Of a DNA stretch of 64,000 nucleotides, positions 20,999 through 62,742 are shown piece by piece. Made by a program: the position numbers and the translations under genes. Under the pieces are notes generated by a model. The model saw only the letters and a list, made by a program, of their open reading frames with translations. It searched no databases and was not told the origin of the DNA. The DNA comes from Styela clava (lineage: Eukaryota; Chordata; Ascidiacea; Stolidobranchia; Styelidae): NCBI RefSeq assembly GCF_964204865.1, contig NC_135262.1:12524001-12588000 (forward strand), in the 5' to 3' direction. Every line of letters begins with the position of its first letter. Within the stretch, counting starts at the first letter, position 1.

Positions 20999-21079
20999 AC
21001 CAATTTGAGCCCATTTTAACACCCTTAATTAAAATAGTCATTTCTCTTTGTTCAAACACGCTAGAAACATCACTTAGGT

Positions 21080-21701
21080 CAGTGCTTTTCAACAGGGGTT
21101 CCGCGGACCCTAGGGTTCAATAGTACATGCAGTGGGGTTCTGTGAGTTTATATGGTTCCTTAGGGGTTCCGCGTTTTTTTTTTTTTTTTTCAGGGGAAAT
21201 CATTTCTTGCTTCCAGCATGTTGATGCGTCATTATAAATATTCTTAGACCACCGCGTCGCATTCAAACTCCAAGTAGGCCAGTTCGTTAAACATGAGGTT
21301 TAGTCCCAGTGCAGTTAATAGACAAAACAGAAATATTCTCGGTTTTTGCGTCACTTTAGTCATTGTTATGGAACTAACAAGAACGCTATTGTTGCACCAT
21401 AGTTACATGATGTTCAAAATATGTAGATATTGCTCGAGACTAGAGAGAATATATACTAGAAACTAGAGCTGTTGTTCAGCTTTTGTTGGAATATATTATA
21501 AATAGTGTGAAACCCAACTTTCTAAAATTTAGTCAATACAGATGAAGCAAAATAGTATATTTTCTTATGTGAGGCGAAATAATAACAACGGTGACCTGCT
21601 CCTCCTCCGAAGCGAACCAAATGTAATTCAATTGCCAAAGTTAGAATTTTTTTTTTTAATTGGGGTTCCATAAAAAACGAAAAATTATATCAGGAGCACT
21701 G
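21080..21701. mobile_element. 622-bp hAT-type MITE (block A copy)
   Basis: It begins CAGTGCTTTTCAAC and ends GGAGCACTG, flanked by the 8-bp duplication ACTTAGGT (21072-21079 and 21702-21709). The orthologous insertion with the same duplication is at 46037-46855 in block B, so it predates the segmental duplication. It contains a T-run (21174-21190) and no transposase. Confidence 0.88.
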
Positions 21702-23061
21702 ACTTAGGTATCTCTAAAAAGATTGTTTTGTACGTATTCTGGCAACCGTTGCTTAAAATACGTAACCGGTCCCTCTAATATACATACGAACATACATGAA
21801 ACTTTACAAAATTTGTACACATAAAAATCACACTGTTGTAAAAAAATAGATAAATATATACAAAGGTAACACGAAGTTTTTATCTCCAATATTCCACTTT
21901 CTTGCGGTAATCTTCAATTCAATTTTTGCGAGTTACTGATACACGTCACTTTCAACGCAAATGATCGTGCTTCGCGAAACCTTCGTACATTTTTGTTGAA
22001 AGAACGTCGGCCGCCGATTCTATATCTGAAATATGGAAAACAACATGTAAAACATGTGCATTCGCATATGTTATGAATACTTTCAAAACCAGTAGAGTTT
22101 CAAAACCGAATCTTGCTTTGTCGGTTCCTCATCTCATAATGACACATCGTTGTCATCGTAATTTTACCCCTCCACGTCAGACCGAAATACGGCTCAAAGC
22201 TTCATCGGCATCGAACTCAACTCGTAATCGCCATTTTTCCATATTTGGTTTTGTTTCAGTGAAAAGTTATGCGGACACTAAAACGCACTTGGTATAATCG
22301 GATATGCTTGTTTGACCTTTCTTTTCTCGTCGAATGTTTCCCACAGCGCGAATGATATAGCCCTGACATGACATTGTTATACGCAGCGAGAGAAATATAA
22401 GCGCAAATATACGCATGATATGTCATCTACATCGACAAGGAAAACAAACACAAAAAAAGCAATGACAAACTCGTCGCCGGACTCTAACTTGCAACAAGGA
22501 TGGGCCAAGAATGAACCAAGGATAAACACACACTACAACGCTGTTGTAGGTCGGACGACTCTGAAATACTTTTAACATTCCAAAAAACAATAAGTTAGCA
22601 ACCTATAGCTAGATTATGGCTTGGAATAACGTGCTCATCTATAATTCACTTTCTGGAACAAAAAAGAACTGTTTAGCGCTGTTTTGATGAATGATGATTC
22701 CCGGTATACAAATTGGATATCTAAAACATTTAAAACAGGTTTTGTACCATACCGTAAATAACATCTACCGAAACATGTTTGAATACACATCCCTTCAGGC
22801 AGAATACTGTTCCAGTCGTTTTTGAGTAAACAGTAAAGAAATAGCAAACACATGTAAGTTCGGAGCCTAACTTGACTTGATAAGATTGTTTACTAATCTG
22901 GTGGATTAACCTACAATATTCGTAGCAAGCAAGTAATGAGTATGTTACATCAAAAAAAAAAAAACAGTGGGCTGTATAAACATATCTTGAACTGACAAGG
23001 TTTAAAAATTCCATTTGCTAACTATTGGCATTTGGATATAGTGATAAGCATCACAAGCAAA

Positions 23062-26000
23062 ATGCCTTTGAGATCGAAGCATGGAAATTTTGATATTCCA
23101 GAAATATCGTTGAGCGACTTTTTTCTCGAGCGTATAAAAGAATATGGTGACGATATTGCTCTGGTAAGTACCATAATTGTATTTGCTTGTATATTTCTAA
23201 ACTTGTGCCGCATGCGGATTGTATATATATTATAATTTTTATATAATGTTGATCAAACCCCACAATTATGCAGAATTGAGGTGTCATCTCTACACCCTGA
23301 ACAATGAAATTGATTTATTACCCAAATACATAGTATATCTAATATATATATATGTAAATTTCACAATAGGTCAGTTGAGGCACAAAAGTCGCTTACTTTC
23401 TACATGATTCTGATCAATCGATTCTCGGAATCTGCACAAAAAAATCATCTGTTCTGAGACAGTTGTAACTTCATTTTTAGTTGCTTCACAAAAAAAAAAT
23501 TAACGTAGCAATGAAAGGCAAAAACCGCTTGTTTTGTGTAATTGTTTAGACACATTTTTTTAATATTTCCTTTTTAATTCAGATTGACAACACCAACGAA
23601 GAAAAACAGCTTACTTTTAGACAAGTTTACGAACAAATACAATCCTGTGGGAGATTTTTTCAAAAGCAAATGATAGGCAAGGGAGATGTTGTGTGTCTGA
23701 TCACTCAGAATTGTGTAGAATATATAGTGGCAACGGTTGGTGTGGTATCTTGTGGGGCGACCATATCACTTTGTAATCCGTCGTACAAAGAAGGTAACTC
23801 TTTTTCGTTGAATATTTATTAGCTTCAACATTATGATAGATATGACTGATGAGGGATTGTTTCAGTCAACTATTTGTTCTCATTGACTTGTGGGGTATTG
23901 TATGCTACGAGTGCTACTCCTGAATGAGGAGGCTTCGTTGGTCTGTATGCCCGGAAAACAAATTGGAACAATTACTTCACCAATGGTTAATTCTTTTGCT
24001 TGAATTGTATTACTTCAATGGTCAGGTTGAGAATTTGATTATGAGAATGCTATTCGCACAGTTCGCTCTGAACAAGGCTATGCGGAAACATTCACTGATA
24101 TTGAATAATAAGTAAGGAAATACAATTCTATTAGAAGGACCGGAATATTTCGGGTTCGGGATTGCCGCCTGATTTATTATAACTCGGGTGAGGTGGTGGA
24201 ATGAAGCTATATGACCGAAAAATATTCAAATTCGAAGTTGGGAGCCGAATTGAAGATATCTGTCAATCGTATACAGTGTAGACGTTCTGATGGACAGAAG
24301 GATGTTACCTGCGCGAGACCATGAAGCGCAATAAAGTTCCGTTTGTGTGCTTTGGATTTAGACCGATATTTGAACAAACGAACACAATGGTTTTGTTCAA
24401 AGTAGAATCATTTCATTGATATGAGTTCTTTCACGAGTTAATTTTGAACAATTTTTTTTGTTTTGCAGGAGAAATACAGCATATCTTCAAAATCACCGAA
24501 CCAAAAATAGTTATCGCATCTGAAAAAAGCATCGATACTATAAAGCAAGTACTCAATAATAACCCAGAGAATCAAGTTCAGGTATCCTGATTTTTAAATT
24601 ATAGATATTATTAATAATAAAATACAAGATCTTTTATATTGTCCATGTATTTATTCTATTTTAAATGTGTTAAGAGGCAAATTCATTGACTTAGAATATC
24701 GATCGCGGTTGTTTGAGCGTACTGTGTAAACACAATTTTCACTTTTAGAAAATCATAGTCATTGGAAAAAGTAATGAATTCGAAACTTGGGATGACATTA
24801 TAATCTCAAATAAAAATAACAGAGGTAAGAAATTATTTCTAATTGTAAAAAATATTGATTTCAAATTTTTCTTGATTCAATAATTTTTCTAGAAAACATT
24901 GTTCCGACTTGCAAAATATCACCAAAGAAAGATTTAGCGTTCCTACCATATTCAAGTGGAACTACAGGAATGCCGAAATGTGTTATGCACACTCATTATG
25001 GTACGATTGCGATGATATTAGCCAGTTGGTAAGAAGAACTTTTCTGATATCGTATCGTTATTCTGCTTAAACCAAAGCACGGAAAATCACTTTATAACAA
25101 TTAAATTCATTACGTTTGGAAATTTCAATACAATATTTATTAATATACATAAACTATCTCATACAATATATTTGAAATGTGTACTTGTAAGTCATTTTTC
25201 AATAAACCTTCGCACAAAATGTTGATGCCAAAGTATTGCTTAGTCGCTTCATTTCGCAAAACTAGATATAAGTATGGATAATTGCATCTTTAACTCAGAC
25301 AAGTTTTAGTATTTTGTATATAAAAATTTATATGAATAGAAAACGTATTCCTAACTTATGAGCATATAAGATATTTTTAGTTGAGTGATATGTCATTTAC
25401 TTCATTTTTGGTGTTACAAAAACTATTTCAAAACTTGATATGGATTATGGCAGCGTGGTATGTATCTTTCGCGACGCACGATTGTAAGTCGATGTGATAT
25501 GTCTAAACATTTTGAATTCTTTTGAGGCACCATTTAAACTATCAACGCGGAGATGTGTTCTACAACGAACGGCCTTTGTATCACGGAGGTGGTTATTTTT
25601 TCTTACTTGTTGCACTGCAAGGCGGGTTATGTGTTATCATGGATCAAAAGTTTGACGTTGAAGGTACACTGGCTGCGATACAAAAATACAAGGTAAAAAT
25701 ATCTTTTACCATATACCATTCGTTTGCTATATTATTTACTCTGGTGATAGTAATATGATATTGTAGCGATTTCAAAATCAGACTTCAATGTGCCAGTACA
25801 TGACCACATATTTGAACGTCGGAAAACATTTGAAAAATTTGGTTTTCATTTGATGGGTATTTGATGCGGATGTATACGTGCATGTTTTCCAACTAAGATC
25901 TTTTTACAGTATATTTGGTTTTCATTGAACGCTTCGTCGGACACCAAGGCTTCCAAGGTTACATTATGTTGGAGGAAGAATAATTCTCGCTGCAATTTAT

Positions 26001-28504
26001 TCATATTTTTCTTTATATTCATTCATGTCGTCAAGGCAAATCATATGCTTCTGGTGCCACCAAATTTGCTAAAACTGTCCCAGACAGAGTTACATCACAA
26101 GTATGATACCTCGTCGTGGAAATCGTCATTTATTGGAGGTGCATCAATTCCACCCACAGCATTGAAAGAAGTTATCGATAGGTTCAACATTAGAATATTT
26201 CCATGTTAGTTGACAAATTTTTATAAACTTTTATAGTAAAGGTGAAAAACAAAGTCTAACTTTATCCAATCAGGTCGGCAGGCAACGTTTCAAGCCTAAA
26301 ATGGAATGAATTGAGTATTTGGAATAACTCGATAAACGACCGTTTATTACCTTTGGCAGCTTGTGTAATTTGTAGGTTCAACATTAGAATATTTTCATGT
26401 TAGTTGACAAATTTTTATAAACTTTTATAGTAAAGGTGAAAAACAAAGTCTAACTTTATCCAATCAGGTCGGCAGGCAACGTTTCAAGCCTAAAATGGAA
26501 TGAATTGAGTATTTGGAATAACTCGATAAACGACCGTTTATTACCTTTGGCAGCTTGTGTAATTTGTTTTATAAAATCGTTTACTATTATTTTGGAAATA
26601 GATATTATTTTAAACATGAACCCGAGCTTAAAGTACAAGTTTGTCTTGGACATAATAGCTGGCTGTTACTGGCGACATTCATTCTTAATTTGAAACTACC
26701 TGTCCAATATCACGCTCGTTCTTCTTGTATTTCATCTTGTATGTACATATATCAATTCCAATTCATATATCACCAATTCCGATGCATTCCTAACTTTGCA
26801 AGTAGATATGTACCTAAATCATTTAATTTTTAACGTGTTGGTATTTCAGGTTATGGGCAGACTGAATGCTTTCCTGTATCTTGGAATGACAAAGTAGATC
26901 AATTCATTGATTCAGCTGGTTCAATTGCAGTCAATTCTGAAATTATGGTGAATTAATTTAACGATTTTTGTAATACAAAAATAGAGTTATATAAAATTTA
27001 CGTTATATAAAGTAAGACAAAAACTTGAAGATTTTGTTTATTCATTTTAAAATCCTTTGGGCTCTATGTGATTCGTTTTTCAATTCGAAATTGTGCTACC
27101 TTCCTATTACGCTTTGAAGTATTTTGACGGTACTGGTATTGTACAAGGTAAAGTAGACTACTGGTCTTCGTTTTCATATATTTGAGCATCGCTGTCTTGT
27201 TTTGTATGCGATGACGTCATCAACATTAAAAATTTCACACTGCGTTCGCGTTCGTTGCTATCTGGGGGTCAGGGGAAGTCGTTAAGACTACGGTACCGGT
27301 AATCTAAGCAGATTGCTTACCCGTACTAGTTCATTTTGCTCTTCGTGTCCATATATTTAAACAGAGCTCTTTTGTTTGACTCTTAAATGTTTTACAGATT
27401 GTTGATCCAAATACGGAAAAAGAGTTGAAATCTGGCGAAGACGGCGAAATTTGGGTCAAAAGTACACATGTAAGGCATGAGATTCTTTCGTCAATATTTT
27501 ACCACATTTTCTGTAGAATAAATTAGTAGAAGATATATTCACACATTTTAATCTAAATGTATATAGGTAGCGATTCCAATTCAACTGTTAACAACATTTG
27601 ATCGTAACGATCATCCTTAGAATCAACAAAGACATTGAGAATCAAAGCAATCATTCCAAACTATCTTATATACGTTTTGCTAGATGGCTGCTGGATATTA
27701 TAAAAATTCGGAAGCAACAGAACAAGCAATAAATAAAGACGGATTTCTTCGTACTGGCGATATTGGACATATTGAAAATGAAATGCTTTTTGTGGTTGGC
27801 CGGCTCAAGGAAGTTATCAAATATAACACGTTCCAGGTAAAAAAAACAAACTTTCAATCACATATTTACCCGCCAATGTACGTTTTGATTTTCAAAAAAA
27901 AAAATTCGGTTTTCTTCAGAATAGTTTTTTTTTTTTAAATACGTTATTTATCTAAGTTAGTTCTTATGTTGAATTTTATGACTTCTCGATATATATCAAG
28001 ATATATTTATGATCGTGTTTAAATTGTTTCGCCTTGTTTTATACTATGACATGTTTAATCATTAATATATTGTTAACCCACTGTTACTTAGAAGATTCGA
28101 CACTTTGAATTTCTAACTATTTCATTTTTTTCTTCATGTTCAGGTTCCACCTGCAGAAATAGAGCATGTACTTATGAAACATCCTGGTTTAAAAGATGCT
28201 GCAGCGGTTGGTGTGCCAGATGAAGCATGTGGGGAGTTACCAAAAGCATTCGTTGTACGGAAAATGGAATCGGTCACAACAGATGAACTGCATGAATTGA
28301 TTAAAAGTACCAACTACATATAAATTTTACTTTATTCCACATGTTCTGTAATAAAAGTACAATTTTATTTTTCTAGATGAACTTGTCGATTACAAACATC
28401 TTCGTGGCGGGATCCAATTTGTCAATCATATTCCGAAATCTATACTTGGCAAAATAGATCGCATAGAATTGAAGAAATGGGCGATGAAAAACGAGAACCT
28501 ATAG
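23062..28504 (+). CDS. ACS-2: 4CL/luciferase-like acyl-CoA synthetase, 12 exons, intact
   Basis: Exons: 23062-23163, 23583-23793, 24469-24581, 24749-24824, 24893-25028, 25527-25692, 26036-26204, 26850-26947, 27398-27469, 27684-27836, 28144-28306, 28377-28504; 1587 nt, 528 aa, frame open throughout. It is an ANL-superfamily enzyme that should adenylate a carboxylic acid and transfer it to CoA. Landmarks: [10 protein letters not shown] (187-196, ATP-binding P-loop), [11 protein letters not shown] (A4-like), YGQTEC (326-331), TGDIG (405-409, ribose-binding Asp407), GRLKEVIKY hinge (420-428), and [11 protein letters not shown] with the likely catalytic Lys512. Length is typical of 4CL/firefly-luciferase relatives (about 540). 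It ends KNENL, so it has no SKL-type peroxisomal signal and is probably cytosolic. It lies head-to-head with ACS-1, 7.2 kb away. Intron 7 carries a private 194-bp tandem duplication. Relative to ACS-3, the stop codon comes four codons later. Substrate is not deducible. Confidence 0.93.
26179..26566 (+). repeat. 194-bp tandem duplication at the exon 7/intron 7 border of ACS-2
   Basis: Unit 1 (26179-26372) contains the last 26 bases of exon 7 and its GTTAGT donor. Unit 2 (26373-26566) repeats it, including TTCAACATTAGAATATTTTC followed by ATGTTAG, preceded by TTTGTAG. ACS-3 has a single copy. The second unit carries a duplicate donor and a new acceptor-like AG, so a microexon is conceivable. 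Confidence 0.85.
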
Positions 28505-28657
28505 CAATGTCCCTCAAGAGATAATTTGAACCCCCAAATGCAAAAATGAAATTTTCTGTAATATTGCCGTAATTTATAATATTAGGATGATTTTGATTTA
28601 CTACTGAGTATTTTGAAAAAAAGTTTCGAACAAGTAATTAAAATTGTTCATATTATT

Positions 28658-28663
28658 AATAAA
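28658..28663 (+). other. candidate polyadenylation signal of ACS-2
   Basis: AATAAA about 155 bp past the stop codon, kept in block B at 54829-54834 after ACS-3. Confidence 0.5.
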
Positions 28664-31091
28664 CTAGGTTGCATGCATTTTGTTCACTTTTCTTAAGCAA
28701 CTCATATTTTTGTTTGTATGTTTGAGAAAATAACTGAAGGTGATGAATTTCAAAATCATGGTCAGAAATATTGATTTCAATGCAAACTCGTATATATACT
28801 GTTGAATGCGTGTTCAAATGTACTGCGACGCGATCGACCGCGGAACAGATGAAGAAACTATTCAAAATTAGTCGCCGAATGAGAATCTACCAAGATATTA
28901 GTATTATAGTCTGTAGTCATATTAGTCTGGTTCTGGGTCACTGGATGAATACGACTTACATTAAAGGATTTCATGGACAAAAAACAATAATCAAACTAGA
29001 CGTTAAAATCGATGTTCAATCAACATTTCAATATAAATTGTAAATAAAATTATATATGAACAGGTACTGGAAAATGAAAACGTAAATATCAAGCTTGCAA
29101 GAGTATGGTATTCCTAAAATGTAAGTATTACAAGGGAACTGTCGACCTAATTGGCGATTTGGGAACCAATCGTTTCTCAAACACAGTCCGCGAATAAGTT
29201 GATTGTCTTTATTCTCTGCTAGCGTAACCGCTTGGTTATCGATAGCTATGGTGTTACCGAAAACTCGAAGTTGCGAAGCGCAATGAGACGTTTTATTCTA
29301 TGTCTTCGAATTGGGTGTTGGACATTGTTTGTTCTTGTTCGACCGCATACATGAAGTCTCTAAAATAATCTACGCGTTTAATCTAGTCCAAACTCGCACA
29401 AAAATGGTAATTTTATAACTAACGATACAGTAAACGTATTATCGGAACTGCATGACAAAGAAAATATTTCAAGAAACAAAAAACAATAGTATGAAGCTTG
29501 TATATTCACCATTTTTGATTAACACAGTACTAACATAAGTATCTGAGTACTAAATAAAACATATAACATCCTCGTGAAGTACATGTTCACAAATATAATT
29601 TAGACATACCGGTATATACTTCGAGAAAAAATATTTGCTTTGAAATTACTATAACTTGAACTCGACCGAATTGCTTATCGTGGATTTGTTTGTTCATGCT
29701 TGACGTTAAATAGTTGGTTGACTGGAAAATAGAAGACATCCATCTCTTTTTTTATATATTTACCAAAATGGTTTAGTTCGTAAAATTGGCCTATATACCT
29801 GAAATATTTATTAACCACAATCATAAATTCTGAGCGGGAATTACCTGCAGTGTAAGCAAAGAATCGGTTATGAGAAAACTTTAGGACTGAATCATCAGCC
29901 TCACTATCATATCAACCTTATGTTATTTCTATAATTATCCCTTATAATCCCGTTGCTTTCATACTATTCAACATTGAAGTTCGAAGACATTATCAAATCG
30001 TATTATCTACTAGCAGTATAATGGCTTTCCCGTGTAAAAGCAGTCGTGCTTTAAAGACGCACGCAATTACATGTGATTACACGATATGAAGTAATTTATA
30101 GCTTTCTTTTTAGGCATCATTTTTAATTTTTTCCCGATGATTTTTTGAGACAATGTTACGGTAAATAGCTATAGCGTGGACACCGCAGCGTTGGTAGTCA
30201 GACTTTCGAACTTCATAACATCTTAAATAGTGTCGTGATATTGCATTGAATATACACTATACACTTAATTTCAAATGGATACTTGAATTATAGCAAATAA
30301 GAATAAGGATTCTTCTTTTTGTATTAAATATATTTCTTTCTAATTAATCATAAAAAGTTGAATACAGATTGCGAACGACACGGTTAACGATGTTGAATTA
30401 GGTTCGTAGAAGATATAGCAAATCATCAGAGTAAAATATGCTTGAATACCCAAAAATATTTTAGTGCTCATAAAGTTGAACCATGTATAATTGTTGATAT
30501 TCAATTAATTATAAAAAATCTATCACGGAACCACGCAGAAATATTCACGAAATGAATCTAATTATTCGTAGCGCTATGAGGTCAAATATGGAAACATGAC
30601 CAATCGGAGTAGTTCAACAGCTACCTATAACCATACGATTTACACGTACGCGTTTTTGCTTCTTCCATCACGGACGTCACGGACTTGAGAAATTGGTTTT
30701 TAGTCCTTGACATATCATCCAGATTTCTTGAATCAATATAAAATTGAATTGGCCCCATCTCTGAAGAACCATCGCGGTGATCATTCAAAAATTCAGAATC
30801 AAGCAATAGTAATATAGATTTTGATTCAACTCAAATTGTTTAAAGTCATTGAAAGCATGGTGCGAATAACAGTGCATTTAAAGTTTGAACACGAAAGCTG
30901 AGGATTATTCTAATGACAGTTTACGAGTTCACACGTCTGTCTCTCACATGCTTTTTGCGGCTTGAGTGATTTATATCAATGTTCCTTTACATTCCTATCA
31001 CATCATATTCATGTCCGGTATCCGATATGTGCACGTACCCAATGACTAGAATTCGAAGTGATATAAATTCACCGAAACAACTTATTTACAG
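28664..31091. other. intergenic between ACS-2 and its pseudogene
   Basis: No gene recognised. Up to about 28820 it matches block B. From there to 30526 no counterpart is seen in block B. The segment 30527-30759 matches block B only in inverted orientation (55553-55788). ORFs at 28771-29043 and 30621-30806 are not supported by any family resemblance. Confidence 0.45.
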
Positions 31092-32359
31092 TTTATGCAA
31101 TGACCGAATGTTGTCCCATATCATGGACGGATAAAGCTGATACATTCACGGATTCAGTTGGCTCTGTTCTGCGTCAATTCGGAAATTATGGTAATGTTTT
31201 AATATGAGTGTGAATTATCATCAGTGAAGAAGATGTAGATAATAACCAGCACACAGACAAAATGACAAAAACTATTTTTCACTATCGAAATAATGTTTGA
31301 TAATGTTTTACAGATTGTTGATCCAAATACAGAGGAAAAAATGAAACCTGGTCAAGACGGAGAGATTTGGGTCAAGGGACCACAAGTAGGCGAACTTTTT
31401 GTACGATGTACACAAGTCCATGTGTTTTGAAATACTATTAATGGCAATTTGCTCTCTTTATTTCTTTTTGAAAGAAAATAATTAAATTGAAAAAATCAAT
31501 TACAATACATTTAATCAAAGAGATAATCGTCAGTCATGCAATCAAGGAGTCGATCATTTCGAAGTTGCAACTAAATTGAGAAAATGTGACAAAGTCTATA
31601 TTTCAAAAGTAATTCCTAGTTGTGCCATTTACTAGATGAACGTTGGATATTATAAAAATGCCGAAGCAACGATGAAGTCAATCAATAAGGATGGATTTCT
31701 TTGTACAGGCGATATCGGAGTTGTTAAGAATGAAAGGCTATATATATGTTATTGGCCGATTGAAGGAAGTTATCAAGTATAACACATTCCATGTATCTGT
31801 TCTATATGGAAATGGGTCATCTAGACTAGACACATAAGTTAATTGAATCCATCAATCAGACAGTTTACTGGGCGTTCATATACGATAAGAAACATGTTTC
31901 ATCAATAACTGACTAGCAAAAGAAGATTCTTACGACATTGTAAAAATATGAGGCCGATTTTTTTTTACCCACAGGTTAAATTGATTCGTGTAGCGATTAA
32001 TTCGTATACTGTCTGTTTAGGTACCACCTGTCGAAATAGAAAATGTACTTTTGCGTCACCCTGGTGTTAAAGATGTTGGAGTGGTTGGTGTTCCAACCCC
32101 GTTTGTGGAGTGTTACCAACGTTTGTTGTAAAAAAAATCTTGAATCGGTCACAGCGAACGAACTTCAAACTCTGATAAAAGGTGAAAAAAAGTATATTAG
32201 TTTTACTTTAATCTACGTGTTCAATTAATATTATTCAAAGTATTTAGTTCAATTTCAGATGAGATTGTCGATTATAAACAGTTGAGAGCAAGTATCCAAT
32301 TTGTCAATATGATACCAAAATCAAAACTCGGAAAAATTGATCGCATAGAATTGAAATAA
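31092..32359 (+). pseudogene. acyl-CoA synthetase pseudogene (exons 8-12 only), block A
   Basis: Unprocessed 3' half of a synthetase: exon-like segments 31092-31190, 31314-31385, 31636-31792, 32021-32181 and 32259-32359 match exons 8-12 of ACS-1 and ACS-2, with introns retained. No exons 1-7 lie upstream. Disablements: an extra T in exon 8 (99 nt instead of 98); four extra bases (TATA) in exon 10 just before the GRLKEV hinge; loss of the AG at the exon 10 donor; and base losses in exon 11 that place a TAA after the GELP region. Motifs still readable are GEIWVKGPQ, TGDIG and [15 protein letters not shown] is shared with ACS-1 rather than ACS-2, so it descends from an ACS-1-like relative. Loss of the 5' half probably came from an older partial duplication. 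Confidence 0.85.
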
Positions 32360-34462: not shown

Positions 34463-34470
34463 TATAAATA
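34463..34470 (+). promoter_or_regulatory. TATA box of gene U
   Basis: TATAAATA followed by GGACGC, 107 bp ahead of the gene U ATG, placing a start site near 34495. The motif is preserved in block B at 60007-60014. Confidence 0.55.
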
Positions 34471-34576
34471 GGACGCACATCCATCGTTTTTGAGAAACAT
34501 TAGTTTGAGTTCTAATTTTCATTTTGTATTTATGTTTAAACTTTAGTGGTCAGAAATATTAATTGCAGCTCTCATA

Positions 34577-43998: not shown

Positions 43999-44006
43999 AA
44001 CGAAAT

Positions 44007-45954: not shown

Positions 45955-46036
45955 CACCAATTTGAGCCTATTTTAACACCCTTAATTGAAATAGTCATTT
46001 CTCTTTGTTCAAACACGCTAGAAACATCACTTAGGT

Positions 46037-51200: not shown

Positions 51201-54200
51201 TGAAAGGAAATGAATTGAGTATCTGGAATAACTCGATAAACAATCGTTTATTACTTTTGGCAGCTTGTGTAATTTGTTTTATAAAATCGTTTACTAATAT
51301 TTTGGAAATAGATATTATTTTAAACATGAACCCGAGCTTAACGTACAAGTTTGTTTTAGACATAATAGCTGGCTGTTACTGGCGACATTCATTCTTAATT
51401 TGAAACTACCTGTGCAATATCATGTTCGTTCTTCTTGTATTTCATCTTGTATGTACATATATCAATTCCAATTCATATATCACCAATTTCGATGCATACT
51501 TATTTTTGCAAGTAGATATGTACCTAACTCATTTAATTTTTAACGTGTTGGTATTTCAGGTTATGGGCAAACTGAATGCTTTCCTGTATCTTGGAATGAC
51601 AAAGTAGATGAATTCATTGATTCAGCTGGTTCAATTGCAGTCAATTCTGAAATTATGGTGAATTAATTTAACGATTTTTGTAATACGAAAATAGAGTTAT
51701 ATAAAATTTACGTTATATAAAGTAAGACAAAAACTTGAAGATTTTGTTTATTCATTTTAAAATCCTTTGGGCTCTATGTGATTCGTTTTTCAATTCGAAA
51801 TTGTGCTACCTTCCTATTACGCTTTGAAGTATTTTGACGGTACTGGTATTGTACAAGGTAAAGTAGACTACTGGTCTTCGTTTTCATATATTTGAGCATC
51901 GCTGTCTTGTTTTGTATGCGATGACGTCATCAACATTAAAAATTTCACACTGCGTTCGCGTTCGTTGCTATCTGGGGGTCAGGGGAAGTCGTTAAGACTA
52001 CGGTACCGGTAATCTAAGCAGATTGCTTACCCGTACTAGTTCATTTTGCTCTTCGTGTCCATATATTTAAACAGAGCTCTTTTGTTTGACTCTTAAATGT
52101 TTTACAGATTGTTGATCCAAATACGGAAAAAGAGTTGAAATCTGGCGAAGACGGCGAAATTTGGGTCAAAAGTACACATGTAAGGCATGAGATTATTTCG
52201 TCATTATTTTACCACTTTTTCTGTAGAATAAATTAGTAGAAGATATATTCACACATTTTAATCTAAATGTATATAGGTAGCGATTCCAATTCAACTGTTA
52301 ACAACATTTGATCGTAACGATCATCATTAGAATTAACAAAGACATTGAGAATCAAAGAAATCATTCCAAACTATCTCATATACGTTTTTCTAGATGTCTG
52401 CTGGATATTATAAAAATTCGAAAGCAACAGAACAAGCAATAAATAAAGACGGATTTCTTCGCACTGGCGATATTGGACATATTGAAAATGAAATGCTTTT
52501 TGTGGTAGGCCGGCTCAAGGAAGTTATCAAATATAACACGTTCCAGGTAAAAAAAAACTTTCCAATCACATATTTACCCGCCAATGTACGTTTTGATTTT
52601 CAAAAAAAAAAAATTCGGTTTTCTTCAGAATAGTTTTTTTTTTAAAAAATACGTTATTTAAGTTAGTCCTTATGTTGAATTTTATGACTTCTCGATATAT
52701 ATCAAGATATATTTATGATCGTGTGTAAATTGTTTCGCCTTGTTTTATACTATGACATGTTTAATCATTAATATATTGTTAACCCACTGTTACTTAGAAC
52801 ATAGGTTCTCAAAGTGCTCCGTACGGAGCCCCAGGGCTCCGCGAGAGGAACCCAAGGGCTCCGCGAGCTATTCGATTACTTTTTAAAATACTGGCTAATT
52901 TTGTAACTGTTCAAAGAAGCAAGAACAGCTTTGATAAAATTTGACAATAATATAGCCTTGAAATATGGTAAAGATGCGGAATTAAAAATGACGTTATTTA
53001 TGAGCTGGAGCGCAGTCAGGTTTCTTGAAAGGGTTCAAAATTGAAATCGGAAATTTCCGCGCAACATCATTTAGCAATTGGAAAAAAACGGATAACGAGA
53101 TTTCTGTTGCGTAAAATATTCATTGCATGACGATGCGAGTATTTAAAGTGTCTTGTCGTAATAATTTATTTCTGCTCAACTTTACTCACGTTTCATTCGA
53201 AATTACTATTAGGATTGCTAAAAGGAAAGAATACTTTTCTAAAATAACATAAAATACGTGATAAACTGCCAACTATGAATAAATTGGAGTTGTATTTTTG
53301 CGATTTGTCAAACTTGATTTGTTTTTTCGCACTCGAGATTATTTTTAAGCAAGATAAGATCGCTGTTTGAAAAATCACAAGATCTGGGCAAAATACGAAT
53401 GATTGAAATTTATTTTATTGCATGCGGCTCCGTTGGTAGTTTCAGAGTGAAAAAAGTTACACCATGCGTACAATTGACTGTGTTTCAATTTCGCAGTTAC
53501 TACGATGAATAACCAATAAAAAACTAACAAAACATCAAATTTTGTGATTTACAATGCCTATAAAAGCATTTTTAATCTGACATGAGTCTGCTGAAACTAA
53601 ACTTATAGTGTGATTTTCCATTTCAAGTTTTAATATTTTAGAATACCGTTTTTCAATCAAGAAATTTGAGCTGCGGATTTACCTCTTTAATAATTATTAT
53701 CTTTAGCATTTCGTCGCAGATGACTATAATACGGTAACATGTTTTTCACATTGAACTCATAATTCCCCACGAGAACAAATAAGCAATTATCGTCGTCATT
53801 GTAGAACAATACATGTATATATATGCCGAAGGAAATTTTTGATTTAGGGAGAATAAACACCGACGTAAAGATGTTTAAAAACACGCCATGCTGACGAAAA
53901 CAATCGGCGATTGTAACAAAATGCAATCGCGCACATTATTAGTGGCCTTTCAAGTCCTCCGAAAATGTCAAAAAGTAAAAGATTCGACCCCCCAATTTAT
54001 TAATATGTTTGTCAAGTGTCAAATTTACAGCTTTAGTATATTTAATTTATTTTTGAAATTGACATTTATATATGACTTGTATTACCCTATTAAAAAGGTT
54101 TAGCATTTAAGTTAGGTAAAGTACGTTTAACTTACTCAGGAATATTAATCGGAAAGTAACAATTTTAACATTTATTTTGGGGCTCCGTGAATGATAGTCA

Positions 54201-54654
54201 ACTCTTCAAGGGCTCCGCAACACCAAAAGTTTGAGAACCCCTGACTTAGAAGATTCGACACTTTCAATTTCTCACTATTTTATTAATTTTTTTCCCCATG
54301 TTCAGGTTCCACCTGCAGAAATAGAGCATGTACTTATGAAACATCCTGGTGTAAAAGATGCTGCAGCGGTTGGTGTGCCAGATGAAGCATGTGGGGAGTT
54401 ACCAAAAGCATTCGTTGTACGAAAAATGGAATCGGTCACAACGGATGAACTGCATGAATTGATTAAAAGTACCGACTACATATAAATTTTACTGTATTCC
54501 ACATGTTCTGTAATAAAAGTACAATTTTATTTTTATAGATGAACTTGTCGATTACAAACATCTTCGTGGCGGGATCCAATTTGTCAATCATATTCCGAAA
54601 TCTATACTTGGCAAAATAGATCGCATCGAATTGAAGAAATGGGCGATGAAATAA
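48211..54654 (+). CDS. ACS-3: 4CL/luciferase-like acyl-CoA synthetase, 12 exons, intact
   Basis: Exons: 48211-48312, 48726-48936, 49427-49539, 49708-49783, 49853-49988, 50470-50635, 50975-51143, 51560-51657, 52108-52179, 52394-52546, 54306-54468, 54539-54654; 1575 nt, 524 aa, open throughout. It is the block B paralogue of ACS-2 with identical intron phases and the same motifs: [10 protein letters not shown] (187-196), YGQTEC (326-331), [14 protein letters not shown] and [14 protein letters not shown] with the likely catalytic lysine. It ends KKWAMK after a TAA where ACS-2 reads on to NENL. Differences from ACS-2 are mostly scattered substitutions (for example the last part of exon 5 reads MISAI where ACS-2 has MILAS, and [13 protein letters not shown] versus [13 protein letters not shown]). 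Intron 11 is 1.76 kb because of a hAT-type insertion; in ACS-2 it is 307 bp. Predicted activity as for ACS-2; substrate unknown. Confidence 0.93.
52800..54243. mobile_element. 1,444-bp hAT-type element in ACS-3 intron 11
   Basis: It starts CATAGGTTCTCAAA and ends TTTGAGAACCCCTG, with the 8-bp duplication ACTTAGAA at 52792-52799 and 54244-54251. The uninterrupted empty site (TTACTTAGAAGATTCG) is at about 28088-28103 in ACS-2, which proves both the boundaries and the timing. Its left arm has inverted CTCCG repeats (GTGCTCCGTACGGAGCCC). No intact transposase was recognised inside; the small ORFs (53193-53378, 53687-53926, 53888-54103) have no hAT motifs. Confidence 0.95.
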
Positions 54655-54828
54655 GAGAACCTATAGCAATGCAAGCAATGTCCCCCAAGAAATAATTTGA
54701 ACCTCTAAATGCAAAAATGAAATTTCCTGTAATATTGCCGTAATTTATATTATCAGTATGATTTTGCTTTACTACTGAGTATTCTGAAAAGAAGTTTCGA
54801 ACACGTACTTAAAATTGTTCATATTATT

Positions 54829-54834
54829 AATAAA
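54829..54834 (+). other. candidate polyadenylation signal of ACS-3
   Basis: AATAAA about 175 bp past the stop codon, orthologous to the one after ACS-2. Confidence 0.5.
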
Positions 54835-55130
54835 CTAGGTTGCATGCATTTTGTTCACTTTTTATAATCAAATCATATTTTTGTTTGTATGTTCGAGGAA
54901 AAAAGTGTCAAATTTTAATTTCATTATTAAAAATGTTGATTTCAATGCAAACTCATATATGTATACTGTTTAATGCGTACTGTATCTTCGTCATCTTCTC
55001 TTATTCTAAATATAGCTGCACAACTGACCTTATTTTTGGTTAGAGATCGCAACAAATATCCACCAATACACAATTACCGAAACATCAGCTACCGAAGCAT
55101 CAGCTAATTACCTATCAGCTACTTCTATTA

Positions 55131-55482
55131 GGCCTGGCATATCCATTTTTGCATATGTTATTTGTAACTCGCACCTGACTAAGTCATCCAAAAATTACGT
55201 CACTACAAAGTCACAGTGTCGAGATAAGGCTTAAAATGTACGGATTGTCGTCTGAAACGCGCAGACGATCACCCGAAATCAAGCAAGCTATTTCTCATGT
55301 TTCTCGTCGGAACAGTTCCTATATGAGAGAGATTGCTGGCGTTGGCTTTTATTGCGGGCGATCGTAACTTTTTTTGGCAAGCTCTATACGTGATTGGGAC
55401 GTTTCAGTGACGTAATGTTTGGATGACCTACCTAGTCAGGTGGGAGTTAGGAATACTAAATGCAGCAAAATTTGTGCCATGC
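55131..55482. mobile_element. 352-bp foldback MITE, probable TA duplication
   Basis: Long imperfect inverted repeats. The left arm contains AACTCGCACCTGACTAAGTC, then ATCCAAAAATTACGTCACT. The right arm mirrors it with AGTGACGTAATGTTTGGATG, then CTAGTCAGGTGGGAGTTA. The outermost ends are GGCCTGGCA and TGCCATGC, with TA on both sides (55129-55130 and 55483-55484). It is absent from block A. It may be a Tc1/mariner-like MITE. Confidence 0.68.
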
Positions 55483-56220
55483 TAACTAGAAGTACTTACA
55501 GCGTTTAGTGAACATGCATGCGCCTTCATTTTTGATAATGAAAAAGCTATCATGAGGCGAATTCAATTTTACATGGATTCACAAATCAAGATAATATGGC
55601 AAGGACTAAAATTGAATCTTTCCAGTCTAAAACAGCAAGACCGCGTATCGGGTAAAACGTTTGGCTGACTATTGGTAGCTGCTGAACTACTTTGATCGGT
55701 CATGTTTCCATATTTCCAACCTCATAGCGCTACGAATATTTAGATATTTTTAGATTCATTTCGTGAATATTTCTGCGTGGATCCCCCCTCTCTGAAGGGC
55801 TATCACGTTTTTCATTCAAAAAATCAGAATCAAGCAATAGTAAATCGGCAGATTTTGGTTCAACTCAAAATGTATAAAGCAATTGTGTTACAGCAGTTAC
55901 GAAAACTGGAAGCATGGTCCGAATCACGTGGCATTTAAATTTGAAAACGGAAGCTGAGAACTAACCTAGTATATTCTGACACCAGTTTTCAAACTCAAGT
56001 TTCGTGTTTTTTTCATGTGCAGAAGTTGGGATCGGGTGTCAGTTTTCGAGTCTCACACGTCTGACTCTTACATGATTTTTGTGGCTTGGGCGATACATAT
56101 TAATGTTCACTCTGCATTCCCATCACAGCATATCCATGTCTGGTATCCGATATTTGCATACACAATAACTTGAATTCAAAATGATATGAATTAACCAAAC
56201 CAATCGTAGGCTATTTATAG

Positions 56221-58252
56221 TGAATGCAATGACCCAATACTGATTCATTCACCGATTCAGTTGGCTCTGTTTGCGTCAATTAAGAAATTATGGTTATAAA
56301 ATTAGGATTTTATTATCAGTGTGAAGTTAAATAATAATAAGGACATGCTCTGGAGGAAGCTGTAACTAGTAACCAGAAAACAGACAAAATGAGTAACAGT
56401 TTTTCATAATCGAAATATTGGTTGGTATTTGGATGCTGTTTTACAGATTGTTGATCCGAATACAAAGGAAAAAATGAAACCTGGTCAAGACGGAGAAATA
56501 GGGGTCATGGGACCACAAGTAGACAATCTCTTTGTGCAATGTACACAATATGAACTGACATAAATGAATATTAAAATTCTATGTGTTATGTTATACTTTT
56601 AATGGCAATTTACTATTTATTTATTTTTGAAAAAAGAAATTGAATTAATTAAAAGAATCTCAGTACATTTTTCAAAGCGACATTCATACAATAAAGGAAT
56701 TATCAATTTGTAGTTGCAACTGAATAAGAAAATGTGACAAAGTCTATATTTCAAAAGTAATTCCTAGTTATGCCATTTACTAGATGACCGTTGGATATTA
56801 TAAAAATGCCGAAGCAACGATGAAAACAATCAAATAAGGATGGATTTCTTTGTACAGGCGATATCGGCGTTGTTAAGAATGAAAGGCTATATGTTACTGG
56901 CCGATTGAAGGAAGTTATCAAGTATAACACATTCCAGGCGAGCAGCATGTTTATCGTTTTTTCCTCCAGTACGTACTTAGACTCAAAGCGACAAAGCTGT
57001 TTAATGACAGAAATACTTGACTGACACATCTGGACATGGGGATTTTCTAGAACTTGATGATTTAAGAATTGAATAGAATATTTTTTATCAAATTAAATTG
57101 AATCTTCTCGAATACTGTTCAAGACGTGTAATTGTATCTGTTTCATATGGAAATGGGTCTACTAGACTAGACACACAAGTTAATTGAATCCATCAATCAG
57201 ACAGTTTACTGAGCGTTCATCTACGATAAGAAACATGTTTCATCAATGACTGACTAGCAAAAAAGAGAAAATTCTTACGACATTGTAAAAATATGGTTGA
57301 GGCTGAATTTTTTTACCCGCTGGTTAAATTGATACGTGTAGCAAATATTGCGTATATTGTCTGTTTAGCTACCACCTGTCGAAATAGAAAATGTACTATT
57401 GCGTGTTAAAGATGTTGGAGTGGTTGGTGTTCCGATTCCGTTTGTGGAGAGTTACCAACGCCTGTTGTAAAAAAAAATCTTGAATCGGTAACAGCGAACG
57501 AACTTCAGACTCTGATAAAAAGTGAGAAAAAGTATATTAGTTTTACTTCAATCTACGTCAGGGGTCGGGAACCCATGGCTCGCGAGCCATATATGGCTCT
57601 TTTGGTGACGGCATATGGCTCTCAGAAAAATCTAATATTCTAAGACTAAGCTTACTATTGTTACGAGATCCCAAACTCTTTTATAGCCGAATTTGGCAGG
57701 AAATTCCCAATACGTTTTAAAACACGCGTCCAGCACATGTCTATGTTATGTAAGATATGTACTAGAGAGGCATTGAGACAAACAAGGGGATTCTGGAACA
57801 TATATTGTGACATCACAAAGCGATATAGTTTAAAAACACTACGGAGATGTCTAAACGAAAAAGGGTGATGAGTATCGTAGATTTCTACATTGGGCTGCAG
57901 GTGAGCAACCGTTCAAGGCCCGCAGCGCCTACATGCAGCATCAGAAATCACATTAAATGTATATTGACATTGTATGTGTTGACTTTCGAGTAAACATTTC
58001 AGGTCTGATTAATTGAAGAAATGTTATATGGCTCGCACGGAAATGCAATTGAAAATATGTATATTTTATGGCTCTCTTGACCAAAAAGGTTCCCGACCCC
58101 TGATCTACGTGTTCAATTAATATTATTCAAAGTATTTAGTTCAATTTCAGAAGAGCTTGTCGATTATAAACAGTTGAGAAGAAGTATCCAATTTGTCAAT
58201 ATGATACCAAAAACAAAACTCGGGAAAAATTGATCGCATAGAATTGAAATAA
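56221..58252 (+). pseudogene. acyl-CoA synthetase pseudogene (exons 8-12 only), block B
   Basis: Counterpart of the pseudogene at 31092-32359. Exon-like segments: about 56221-56292, 56447-56518, 56784-56937, 57369-57520 and 58151-58252. Independent damage: exon 8 is shortened and has an in-frame TAA where Ser-Glu is expected; GEIW has become GEIG; exon 10 gained an A, giving a TAA; the exon 10 donor is GC; part of exon 11 is lost (the LRHPG segment); and an extra A precedes the terminal KIDR. A 544-bp hAT MITE sits in its last intron. The two copies share the older lesions in exon 11, so the ancestor was already broken before the segmental duplication. Confidence 0.85.
57559..58102. mobile_element. 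544-bp hAT-type MITE
   Basis: It starts CAGGGGTCGGGAACC and ends GGTTCCCGACCCCTG, a perfect 15-bp inverted repeat, with the 8-bp duplication ATCTACGT (57551-57558 and 58103-58110). The empty site TTTAATCTACGTGTTC is present in block A near 32207-32222. Inside the left end, GGCTCGCGAGCC and repeated ATGGCTCT motifs are seen. No transposase. Confidence 0.95.
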
Positions 58253-60006
58253 TGGGCTATGAAATAGGCGAACAACATGGAGCTCTAACGATAAATCTAA
58301 TTTCCCGAGAGTAAAATTACCCAATAAAGCATTATTAACATGACTAATTAGCTAATTGTCTTTATTGGTGTTGAAAAAAATGCATTTTTATAAGCCGTAA
58401 GTACAAATGAAAATATCATCAAATTCTCTTTGTAATATTATTTATTAACAAATCATTATTATTATTAAAGATAACATATGCCTGGGATGAGTATAATTTT
58501 CTGCATTCATTTCGGAGTTTGCCTACATTTACCATATAGTTGCTACTCATATAATTTTGTCATACTTGTATTATTTTATTTATATTCCTGTTAACTTGAC
58601 AAGCCTCATCCAAAGATTGGCAACAAAATGAACATACGTTTAAAGCTATTCTTCCCTTTACCCGTGCATAATGCATGCTTTATAAAATACCATTTATATT
58701 GGATAATTTTAGTCCAGTCCGCAACTGCTTGGTTGAATACTTAGATGTGTTTCAGAGTTTTATATCAAATTTAAGTGTAAACATATATTTGTAAATGAAT
58801 TGAGCATTGCTCGAATTTTTTGACACTATGCATTCGCGAGGGTTAATTCTGGAAATAAATTAGATTGTAAAGAGTAAAACGGCTTTGAGCCATCAGACGT
58901 TTAGAATTTTATGTTGAATATTTACTAGTCGTTTCAAATCAACTCGCGGTATTTTGCGAAGGACTGCAACTCACGAAAAAAAGTTTACGAGGTTACAGTC
59001 GGGCGCATTCCCTTGTACTTTTGATCTCACACAAAAATAAAATCCCACAAAGTATCCAAAGCGGGGAAAATAGAATCTTTAAGCTCCAAAAGTTCAAACA
59101 ATTGGTTCATTAGTTAGGCAGAAACCTTTTTTTTAACAATAAAAAGGAAAAAGATACCACCCACAACATAATAACAGAACGGTCCATAGGTCTTTTCGTG
59201 TCGAAATAAATGAAGCAAATCACCTAAAAGGGATTCGATTCGAAAATCTTCAGATGCGCATCAGTCAATAAAACAAAATTAATGTTATTTCACTTTTTAA
59301 CTTAGGTTGTGAAACATGTTCAACAAAACGCATCGATATGCGTTATTGAAGGGCCCACGCTTTATCAGTCTTAGCCTAAAATAATAGATCGGTAAGACAG
59401 ACAACAAGCAGCCTTGAGAAAAATATTCCAAGGAATATATTACAAGCACGTCGTGGTGTCCGAAACAAAGAGGAGCGGAACTACGAAGGCCTTTCAAATC
59501 GATGATATACCAATTCTGTTGAATAGACACGCAGGAGGCCCTTCAGGTACATGAAAAGAAATTCCTATTGCTACGCGTTGCATCATGATGACATTGTAGA
59601 ATTTGTGTAATTTGATTCCAAGGAATACATTACAACCACGTCATGGCGTCCGAAACAAAGAGAAGCGGAACCATGAATGTCTTTCAAAATCGATGGTCTA
59701 TAAATTCTGTCGAATAGACACGCAGAAGATCCTTCAAGTACATGAAAAAAAAACCTAAATTTAACAGAATGCTGATCGCTGACGTCTTGAAAAATTCTTG
59801 TTTAAAAGCATATTTTGTCGGTTGTGGTGATAAATTTTCTTTTTTTTTCAACTTGTGATAATAGCCGCGAACTTATTCTCAATTAGGTCTAATATCCGAA
59901 AGGAACAATAAAAACATAGTTATTTATATTGGATAGGATTGGGGGAGGTAGGTGATTGATATCACAATCATATGTACCCACTAAGTGATAAGCGTTTAGA
60001 ACTCTT
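58253..60006. other. intergenic upstream of the gene U copy
   Basis: Matches 32560-34462 of block A, including the ~135-bp direct repeat (units near 59425 and 59614). No gene recognised. Confidence 0.5.
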
Positions 60007-60014
60007 TATAAATA
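60007..60014 (+). promoter_or_regulatory. TATA box of the gene U copy
   Basis: TATAAATA, 107 bp ahead of the ATG, the same spacing as in block A. The promoter may therefore still be active although the gene body is broken. Confidence 0.5.
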
Positions 60015-60120
60015 GGACGCACATCCATCGTTTTTGAGAAACATTAGTTTGAGTTCTAATTTTCATTTTGTATTTATGTTTAAACTTTAGTGGTCAGAAA
60101 TATTAATTGCAGCTCTCATA

Positions 60121-62521
60121 ATGTCGACAAAAAAACTGGTCTCAAAAGAAATTAAAAGCTCCAAAGATTTGGAAAAAATCAAAAAAGATTTGAATAAAAT
60201 TAAGCAACCGTTTTTTCACAAAGTCATCAAGTTGGATCGTATTGAATACCCAGAGTTAAATCTGCTGAATAATTTGATGAAAAGAAATCGACTGCAGGAA
60301 ATAAGTGTACGAGAATGCTGTGAAACTGCGGATGATCTGGCAAGACTACTTCAGGCTATTTCAAGCAACCCGTACGTTGACACAACGGTGAGTAGTGATA
60401 TTCGTTTAATTATTTCATTGTGTACAATTTCCCTTCAGAATCGTATTTATTCACACTGATCCTATTCCATGAAATTTCCATCTGCAGTATGAAAATGTAA
60501 TCTTTTTTTCAAACAACAAAACAGCCGTTGTCATTGGATATCAGGGAAAATCAATGTGATGGTAGATGTGTCGAACTTCTCCGTGACATGATTGACCGAG
60601 GGATTATAGCAAGTTTGGAGCTTCCGTCGGAGCAGAAAGAAAATCACATTTTCACGTTATTGCGTTCCATTCGTTACTGCGAAAGTCAGGTTATAAAGTA
60701 ATTAGTTGTTAAGCGCGCGTAAACACTAGCTATCTATATATGTATTCCCTACATGTATTCTTCTATTTGCAACAGATGCAACTACTTAATATAAATGACA
60801 ATGTTATTGATGAAAAAAGTTTTGAATTACTGATGAATATCTTGATGGAAAATAAAGTTCAGAAGAAACTTTACTTGAAAGATGTAGAAAACCAAAGAGC
60901 AGTTTACTGAAGCAGACAAACAATCGCTGCAACAAGCACAATCTTCAAAGGTAGTGATACAAATTGAAACGTTTTAGATTCTCACCTTTATTATCTTTTC
61001 TAATGTACCAAAAATGTACCAAAGTTATCCTGTCAGCGACATTTTGCTACTGAACCATATTGCACCCCAAAAAAACCTCATAGACCGAAAAAGCCAAAAT
61101 ATATTAATGAATAGTAGTAATATATGGATATTAAATATATGTAAAATGCAAAATCATATTGTTGAATATATAAATAGATATTGTAGAACGTTTGTAAATG
61201 GTCGAAGATCTAACTACAACCAAAAAAATTTCAGAAATTAGCGATCAAATGGTTCAAGACTAAGCCTGCAGTGAACAGCTCACTCATAGCATATCAGGTT
61301 TGTGGATTCAATGATGATTTTATATATCTGGCTAGAATAAGCATTTGCCAGCAACATCCGTATATAAAATACGTTTGGAAGTACAAAGCCACAAAATGGG
61401 TTTTACACTTTTTTAAACTTGAGCTGCAAGAAAAAGTCAGAGAAAAATCAAATAAGTGGGATACTGAATAACACAATTCAACGTTTTGAATAAATTCAAA
61501 ATTTTTACCAATATTAGATTTGTTTTCCAAAAATCGAGATTTATTATGATTTTAATAAAATACTGTAATAAATTTATCATTAAGCACAGGTAAATGTATT
61601 TTCAGGATGGAAATAGCTTATTTAGAAGAGTGACTGATAGATTGTTGTCATATGTACCTGAAAGTCACCGGGAAGCCGCAAAACTTGCAATTTCAAACCA
61701 ATTCCGTCCAAAAGTATTAATTTAATTTTGTTATTCGAGCGACGATACTATACTATTTGTTGGCATTTCTTGCGCTACAAAATGTTCATATATCCTCAAA
61801 GTGCAGTCACCATAGCAACTTCTTATTTTGAACGAAAGTTCCTATACAATTTCACACAAACCAAATATTTTGCCGTTTACACTCAGCTTAGAGATAAAGT
61901 TTAAATATACTTTATTATATGGCAATTATATAGATTACCATCCTTAAAATATTCATCCGATTTATCAATCAAGAGTACGCCATGTAAAAAAAGTGGTTAG
62001 GAGTCGATATATTATGATGTTCCGTGGCTCACATGTTTAGATTTGATTATTATGAATAATACATATAAATAAATGAAACAATCTGACTCTGACGTGATTA
62101 CATAGTTACATTTATGTGCATTTCGTCTAATGCTAGTTGTAGATATGGATGTAAAGTGCGTTCATTTTTAGAAAAAACGCAACAAAAACAGATATCCAGT
62201 TTATCAAGTAAGGTTTTTATTTATTTTTTCTATGTATGTGTGTAATAAGAAATGCAATAAGCAATATTACATTTAAATTTTATAATTGTTAAAGTGCAGA
62301 AAATTAGAATTTTCAAAATAAAGATGTTTAAAACTTTTATTTCTAGTATTCAAGTACTTACCTAACGTAGTTATACTTGATTGAAACCGAAAAGATTCAA
62401 AATTTTCAACAAAAAAAAAACGATACAGAGAAGCAGTATTGTATTTCCTATTTATTACAGGACGATATTTTGTCAAGTGAAGATCAGTATTGTTCGGAGG
62501 ACGAAGAAATGATCGATAATT
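60121..62521 (+). pseudogene. truncated, frameshifted copy of gene U (exons 1-7)
   Basis: Exon-like segments: 60121-60387, 60525-60689, 60776 to about 60950, 61235-61297, 61606-61713, 62172-62207 and 62461-62521. Exons 1-2 are intact and nearly identical to gene U. In exon 3 two single-base losses (GATTGTAG to GATGTAG and AACCCAAAG to AACCAAAG) shift the frame and reach a TGA at 60908-60910, so the product would stop at about 188 residues. Exons 8-16 are missing because the duplication ended in intron 7. Intron 3 gained roughly 150 bp (about 61040-61190). A short LRR-only protein, or a decoy transcript, remains possible because the promoter and first two exons are preserved; otherwise this is a pseudogene. 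Confidence 0.85.
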
Positions 62522-62716
62522 GTATGTACCGATCACAACTAATTACCATATTTCTCTGTGAATCGCACCTGTGGATAATACGCACCCAGGTTTTAGTACA
62601 TTTTTAACGAGAATTTTCCATGCACTCCATGTATGATACGCATATCAAAATTCCGTCCTCTCTTGCCTTGTAGGTATTTTTTCCGGACGTTTCAGGCATT
62701 CAGGCCTTTTGTTAAC

Positions 62717-62742
62717 TATATATATATATATATATATATATA
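62717..62742. repeat. TA microsatellite
   Basis: (TA)n of about 26 bp, 36 bp past the right edge of block B. A similar TA run lies at the corresponding edge of block A. Confidence 0.85.

Follow-up and report, generated by a model that had tools for sequence, protein, structure and literature searches.

Two acyl-CoA synthetase blocks of the ascidian Styela clava as the probable first units of a tandem array with mosaic divergence

We analysed a 64,000-nucleotide window of the Styela clava genome (NCBI RefSeq assembly GCF_964204865.1, contig NC_135262.1, here C17, positions 12524001-12588000 of the forward strand), which holds two directly repeated blocks, A and B, each with an acyl-CoA synthetase (ACS) gene, a pseudogene of ACS 3' exons and the first seven exons of a second gene, gene U. 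A and B probably open a tandem array that lies on one chromosome and has the order L-[A S]-(P[B D S])x3-R, where S is a spacer holding later U exons, P a filler, D a long repeat-rich stretch and R the flank met by the last S; B' and B'' denote the B-type blocks that follow B. This order and the junctions named below are read directly from the contig, and the order of events proposed further on is our reconstruction from them.

Searches of the genome (376.6 Mb in 379 contigs) returned five matches to the 5' exons of gene U and five to spacer S, with five of five candidates scored in each case and all matches on the plus strand of C17. The ACS 5' query (window 21600-23800, the first two ACS exons) gave at least four full-length matches, all on the C17 plus strand as well, and the remaining 44 of the 48 matches listed were shorter; 40 of its 171 candidates were scored, and repeat counts are to be read as lower bounds. 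More distant matches to the query's ACS part, among those listed, form a cluster on contig C1 (10.706-10.747 Mb) and also occur at C17:12914667-12915185, beyond the right end of the array.

The copies span about 350 kb, all on one strand (Table 1). We read C17:12494001-12828000 in full, 334 kb without any N, together with 12892501-12898000, two stretches 64.5 kb apart; they take in 18.6 kb of D3, two of the three D-S joints and a minor part of the last S. S, P and B are joined identically in all three cases, and the B-D joint is likewise identical in three of three. In the two D-S joints read (of three), S starts at 37001-37002, in the same AT tract where B stops. The last S stops at window-equivalent position 41714, meeting R, where the region read gave only short, weak matches. 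Because the last S ends there, we take the shared unit to be 20998-41714 (20.7 kb) and P to be filler between units; the breakpoints common to the array are 20998 and 41714, and not 37008. After D1, unit 2 continues with 3.1 kb of S, then U exons 1-7, then S again (C17:12670972-12682294). This compact arrangement, with U joined directly to S, is found twice with the same joint; in the second contiguous copy the U part is closest to that of A (98.15%), and the S part is 98.58% identical to S1 and 98.43% to S3.

Within the window, BLAST self-alignment bears out the direct duplication proposed in an earlier, sequence-only reading, whose block ends were right to within a base or two: A (20998-37008) and B (45955-62681) match collinearly as direct repeats, at E = 0 for the longer pieces, and lie 8,946 bp apart. 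The pair is a segmental (tandem) duplication in the usual sense (1 kb or longer, no less than 90% identical, present more than once and, if tandem, in one orientation), with the core and tail below 90%. The left boundary falls inside the same CACCAATTTGAG sequence in both blocks, about 75 bp before what by eye looks like a hAT-type miniature inverted-repeat transposable element (MITE), and the right boundary falls at an AT-rich tract. Contrary to what had been supposed, the two blocks do not match end to end. In windows of 250 columns the flanks are mostly 92-100% identical, with 88% next to the core and roughly 50% across A 28771-30556. The core itself (1.7 kb at A 28811-30527, 0.6 kb at B 54978-55552) is unrelated between the blocks, with no BLAST match. 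The next 230 bp, at the edge of this non-homologous core (window 30527-30758 and 55552-55784), match in inverted orientation at 73%. Rightward of the inverted stretch, BLAST identity climbs through 71%, 76% (A 30914-31791) and 88% (31792-32218) to 96%, the tail thus being 71-88% alike. Three further differences are insertions in B (244, 1,452 and 552 bp), all of them bordered by 8-bp repeats of a target that A has once; the other A-B length differences listed showed no such signature of 8-bp duplication and empty site.

The same reading had the copy ending with U exon 7, which could not be upheld: the window extends 1.3 kb past 62681, and spacer sequence recurs after 84.3 kb. The later U exons return that far past B (about 84 kb, with D between), and therefore the B copy is not simply truncated at exon 7. 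If the S copies came with the same event, U in B is also not a partial gene duplicate in the sense that the rest of the gene was never copied. That one gene was amplified and the other truncated is correct insofar as ACS is kept and the copied U unusable; U is, however, split by D, with its later exons following D.

Divergence among the units is strongly mosaic. Mismatches cluster per 250-column window more than in all 2,000 permutations in six of six block pairs, where the three pairs with A leave out 28700-32400 and the three B-type pairs keep it, gap-rich tail included. B and B' share an identical run of 8,723 bp with sharp edges, reached by none of 2,000 permutations, and none of 2,000 reach the 1,174-base runs of the other two B-type pairs. 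Outside the tract, B and B' are 1.2% different in their U parts, and D1 and D2 are 0.5% different over their first 31 kb. In the assembly sequence, on which this comparison rests, these 8,723 bp have the form of the identical tract expected of interlocus gene conversion, and would represent either a recent conversion or an assembly artefact. The 1,452-bp insertion, missing from B'', lies inside the tract, so that its sharing follows the tract. For the pairs with A, the longest identical runs are 507 bases with B (reached in 1 of 2,000 permutations), 507 with B' (0 of 2,000) and 345 with B'' (14 of 2,000), so that the case for conversion between A and the other units comes mainly from clustering. 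Where all four blocks are present, differences found only in A number 189 in 22751-28700, 10 in 32400-34500, two in 34500-35600 and 20 in 35600-37008; with so few A-only sites in it, the right part of A is nearer to the B-type units than the left part.

The synthetase was indeed duplicated in full, with a complete 12-exon ACS gene in both A and B, in which the lengths of exons 1-11 and the splice dinucleotides are equal. The protein belongs to the acyl-CoA synthetases by its Pfam domains (AMP-binding, 5.5e-77; AMP-binding_C, 4.2e-17; both above cut-offs), and its best solved matches are 4-coumarate-CoA ligases, followed by fly CG6178 and luciferases (5bsw, 4CL2, E 8.4e-75; 7kyd, CG6178, E 2.5e-70). 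With both domains, it resembles the ANL-type acyl-CoA synthetases, the group of 4-coumarate-CoA ligase, insect luciferase and CG6178. Between A and B, the synonymous (Ks) and nonsynonymous (Ka) divergences are 0.046 and 0.019 codon by codon, and 0.048 and 0.022 in a second alignment. The coding sequences of B and B' show no difference in 1,596 bases compared; that of B'' differs from B by 11 bases and six residues, and AT replaces AG at its intron-2 acceptor. ACS is therefore intact in A, B and B', with a mutated splice acceptor in B''. ACS-1, on the minus strand, is much older, with 68% protein identity and a Ks of about 1.08 (one exon-3 base left out). Its exon 3 (window 12590-12703, minus strand) has one extra base in a G run at the acceptor, which breaks the frame and marks either a pseudogene or an assembly homopolymer error.

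Downstream of each full ACS gene lie ACS exons 8-12 alone, forming a pseudogene tail whose exons are 93.0% identical between A and B over 574 exon bases. An unrooted tree separates the tail exons of all four blocks from ACS-1 and the ACS of A and B (support 0.998); in the underlying alignment, exon 12 of B'' matches poorly and exon 8 of the three B-type blocks matches over two thirds only. Import of the B core and tail from another ACS locus was considered and rejected, as the tails of all four blocks group together in this tree and an outside source is not needed.

Gene U is found as open exon pieces 1-4 and 7 in A and 8, 10, 11 and 13 in the spacer. The earlier description of an 8.9-kb spacer with U exons 8-16 and a hAT transposon thus holds for its length, for the hAT transposase open reading frame and for these four exons; AG and GT stand exactly at the marked ends only for exons 8 and 13, the donor of exon 9 was not set, exon 12 was not located, and the total of 16 is that reading's own count. 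Among the five 5' copies only that of A is undamaged in the exons checked. B and B' have in common a pair of one-base deletions in exon 3, and exon 1 of B' has in addition gained one base; from exon 1 of B'' the start codon and 21 bp are missing; and the fifth copy (C17:12674247, joined to S) lacks 16 bp of exon 2. Exon 3 was checked in B'' and in the fifth copy only for gaps, and none was seen. Lesions of the kinds that mark a pseudogene (in frame, start or splicing) are thus present in all three copies beside D and in the fifth copy; since the fifth, joined to S, is damaged too, decay of U is not limited to copies beside D. Some of the one-base changes could be assembly homopolymer errors. 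As to the protein family, a Pfam search with exons 1-4 gave two matches below the cut-off (E 0.084 and 0.57) and one with the joined pieces gave none, and no solved relative was found up to E 5.

Based on these observations we can present a rough order of events. A tandem duplication of a 20.7-kb unit of ACS, the older ACS 3'-exon pseudogene and gene U, its copies joined through 2.3 kb of filler P, would have come first. The repeat-rich D, 76-84 kb long, would then have entered the second copy of U, splitting it at the AT microsatellite that lies after exon 7 and before exon 8. Next, probably through unequal crossing over, the whole P-B-D-S unit, 100-117 kb, would have reached three copies. 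Ectopic exchange may keep homogenising parts of the units, most recently the 8.7-kb ACS tract of B and B', and stretches beside large non-homologous inserts would stay diverged. The outcome would be that ACS is kept as extra copies of nearly the same enzyme and that the extra U copies are dead or dying.

Several points weigh against this proposal. The array is known from the assembly alone, and false duplication of one or more units is possible; the 8.7-kb identical tract is also what would be expected from a repeat node used twice by the assembler. We only infer the insertion of D, with its loss from A as the alternative. The second contiguous U-S copy (12674066-12682294) requires an extra exchange outside the model, and its U is broken though not split by D. 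The core and pseudogene tail are far more diverged than the flanks, which a single-age duplication does not predict, and the gap-rich tail kept in the B-type pairs inflates their clustering.

Taken alone, the window would fit a simpler account in which one 16-kb block was copied 8.9 kb downstream, ACS being amplified and U truncated at exon 7. This is very unlikely, as the S copies read after D start at 37001-37002 and the last S ends at 41714, so that the duplicated unit passes 37008 unless those S copies have separate origins. The duplication is accordingly not the clean 16-kb partial one first described: A and B stand at the head of four ACS units, the array breakpoints lie at 20998 and 41714, and the divergence is mosaic. 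An assembler might also have put two alleles of one locus in tandem, a concern that the earlier reading raised with good reason, and in a very polymorphic animal an A-B divergence of mostly 0-8% per 250-column window and many element insertions could be allelic. We hold this to be the least probable explanation, since one contig, read over 334 kb without N, carries four ACS-bearing units and five U 5' copies rather than two, and since A continues into S and B into D, whereas alleles would share both sides. Moreover, the S-P-B and B-D junctions each occur three times on that contig with differing element insertions, which makes a mis-join of A and B unlikely.

A subtler error, in which some of B, B' and B'', with D, would be false duplicates and the array really two units plus assembly copies, is decidedly unlikely too, but it would account for the sharp-edged 8,723 identical bases of B and B', about 123 kb apart, and for the 0.5% difference between D1 and D2 over 31 kb. 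The units nevertheless bear marks of their own (the hAT in P1 only, an element of long terminal repeat (LTR) type in P2 only, no ACS intron insert in B'' and the 552-bp MITE in B only), their U lesions differ, and one diploid cannot give three alleles. It is unlikely, if less so, that D is ancestral between U exons 7 and 8 and that the compact A-S form was derived by deletion of D at the microsatellite. The junctions fit deletion between two AT tracts equally well, and P-B-D-S, with three units, is the commoner arrangement; on the other side, the compact form occurs twice with the same joint, the only U found undamaged is compact and each of the three U 5' copies next to D is broken, but the other compact U copy is broken as well. 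Finally, one may tentatively consider selection for more of one ACS, with 8.7-kb ectopic conversion tracts keeping the copies identical as the passenger gene decays, although we find this doubtful; if true, the tract would be one that spans a whole gene and carries a transposon insertion along over about 123 kb.

The mobile elements are of familiar kinds. The hAT open reading frame in the first filler has the transposase domains DUF4371 and Dimer_Tnp_hAT, and the element at 42049-43998 shows the transposase, terminal repeats, 8-bp target-site duplication (TSD) and empty site of a hAT transposon. Transposase domains, 8-bp TSDs and empty sites liken these insertions to known hAT transposons and MITEs, with nothing unusual about them. 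The LTR-type element of P2 (C17:12683297-12691409) has a 2,140-aa open frame and is BEL/Pao by eye. D begins at the 37008-equivalent end of B, is 76-84 kb long and is 98.8-99.5% alike in its aligned parts. A giant transposon with terminal inverted repeats and TSD was considered for D and rejected: the eight bases shared between the end of B and the start of the following S are AT microsatellite, and the first and last 200 bases of D1 are unmatched by eye. D also holds satellite-like arrays at C17:12628878-12639461, with shifts near 500 bp and periods close to 39 and 78 bp, and tandem pairs of 5.8 kb and 5.1 kb. Elsewhere, the window has an open frame with a glycosyltransferase family 10 (fucosyltransferase) domain (5732-6310, minus strand; Pfam E 5.8e-43) and a 149-bp tandem duplication, 98% identical (2621-2898); an Rfam scan at gathering thresholds and a tRNA scan of the window found nothing.

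Table 1. Features of the window and of the array on C17 (a dot stands for no strand assigned)
Feature	Window position	C17 position	Strand	Basis
Block A, first array unit: ACS gene, 3'-exon ACS pseudogene tail, gene U exons 1-7	20998-37008	12544998-12561008	+	self-alignment
ACS in A (ACS2): 12 exons, 528 aa, intact	23062-28504		+	conserved exons and GT-AG sites
195-bp tandem duplication in A, repeating the last bases of ACS exon 7; B, B', B'' without it	26179-26567		+	
Core of A without BLAST match to B	28811-30527		.	BLAST
ACS exon 8-12 pseudogene tail in A	31092-32383		+	local alignment (ends)
Gene U exons 1-7 in A; the one undamaged 5' copy of five (exons 1, 2, 3, 4, 7 checked)	34577-36842		+	
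First of five spacers S on C17, later U exons; last S abuts flank R at the equivalent of 41714	37009-41714	12561009-12565714	+	
Filler P1, after first S; P about 2.3 kb without hAT, links S to next B in 3 of 3 junctions	41715-45954	to 12569954	.	
hAT transposon, 8-bp TSD AACGAAAT; P1 only, sites empty in P2 and P3	42049-43998		+	
Block B, second unit	45955-62681	12569955-12586681	+	self-alignment
244-bp hairpin MITE, TSD ATATTTTC; in B, B', B'', empty in A	46469-46712		.	
8,723-bp tract identical in B and B', about 123 kb apart; whole ACS, about 0.6 kb before and 1.7 kb after	47642-56364		+	
ACS in B (ACS3): 12 exons, 524 aa, intact; stop four codons before that of A	48211-54654		+	
1,452-bp hAT-like insertion, ACS intron 10, TSD ACTTAGAA; in B and B', empty in A and B''	52792-54243		.	
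Pseudogene tail of ACS exons 8-12 in B; match to exon 8 covers two thirds	56193-58279		+	local alignment (ends)
552-bp hAT MITE, TSD ATCTACGT; in B, absent from A, B', B''	57549-58100		.	
Gene U exons 1-7 in B; frame broken by two single-base deletions in exon 3	60121-62519		+	
D1, 84.3 kb, its start inside the window; S copy after it	62682-64000	12586682-12670971	.	
3.1-kb S fragment, directly after D1		from 12670972		
Second contiguous U-S copy: U exons 1-7 joined to S		12674066-12682294		
P2 with inserted element		between second contiguous U-S copy and B'		
B', then D2		12692698-12710557		
S (inserted element within), then P3		from 12787021		
B'', then D3		12795135-12809418		
Last S, then R		about 12888.5 kb to 12893178		

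The tandem array, the filler, the large inserted stretch, the decay of U and the partial homogenisation of ACS are all of known kinds, and each is ordinary. Tandem gene arrays with interlocus gene conversion (PMC3924837, PMC4132178) share with this locus the direct repeats of a gene neighbourhood, the mosaic divergence, an identical tract between diverged flanks and diverged stretches next to large inserts; the identical tract here, at 8.7 kb, is long. Conversion continues until substitutions, element insertions or other large indels disrupt pairing (PMC3924837), and it can make duplicates look young (PMC3857721). With the partial gene duplicates described in PMC3449122, U shares an incomplete flanking gene that decays beside a copied gene; unlike in those, the missing exons were copied too, beyond D, so that U is split and not cut short. 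Such partial duplicates are common: among 290 young C. elegans pairs they account for 21%, and among new D. melanogaster genes for 27% (PMC3449122).

The pair of blocks seen in a 64-kb view is not a finished event but the left edge of an array of about 350 kb, and the apparent truncation at exon 7 is the edge of a stretch running beyond the window. The locus offers a system in which one undamaged and several decaying U copies stand beside intact ACS copies in the same units, with element insertions marking which unit was copied from which. If the reading with selection for more ACS is true, the array would show, within one repeat unit and gene by gene, where concerted evolution kept hold and where it let go.

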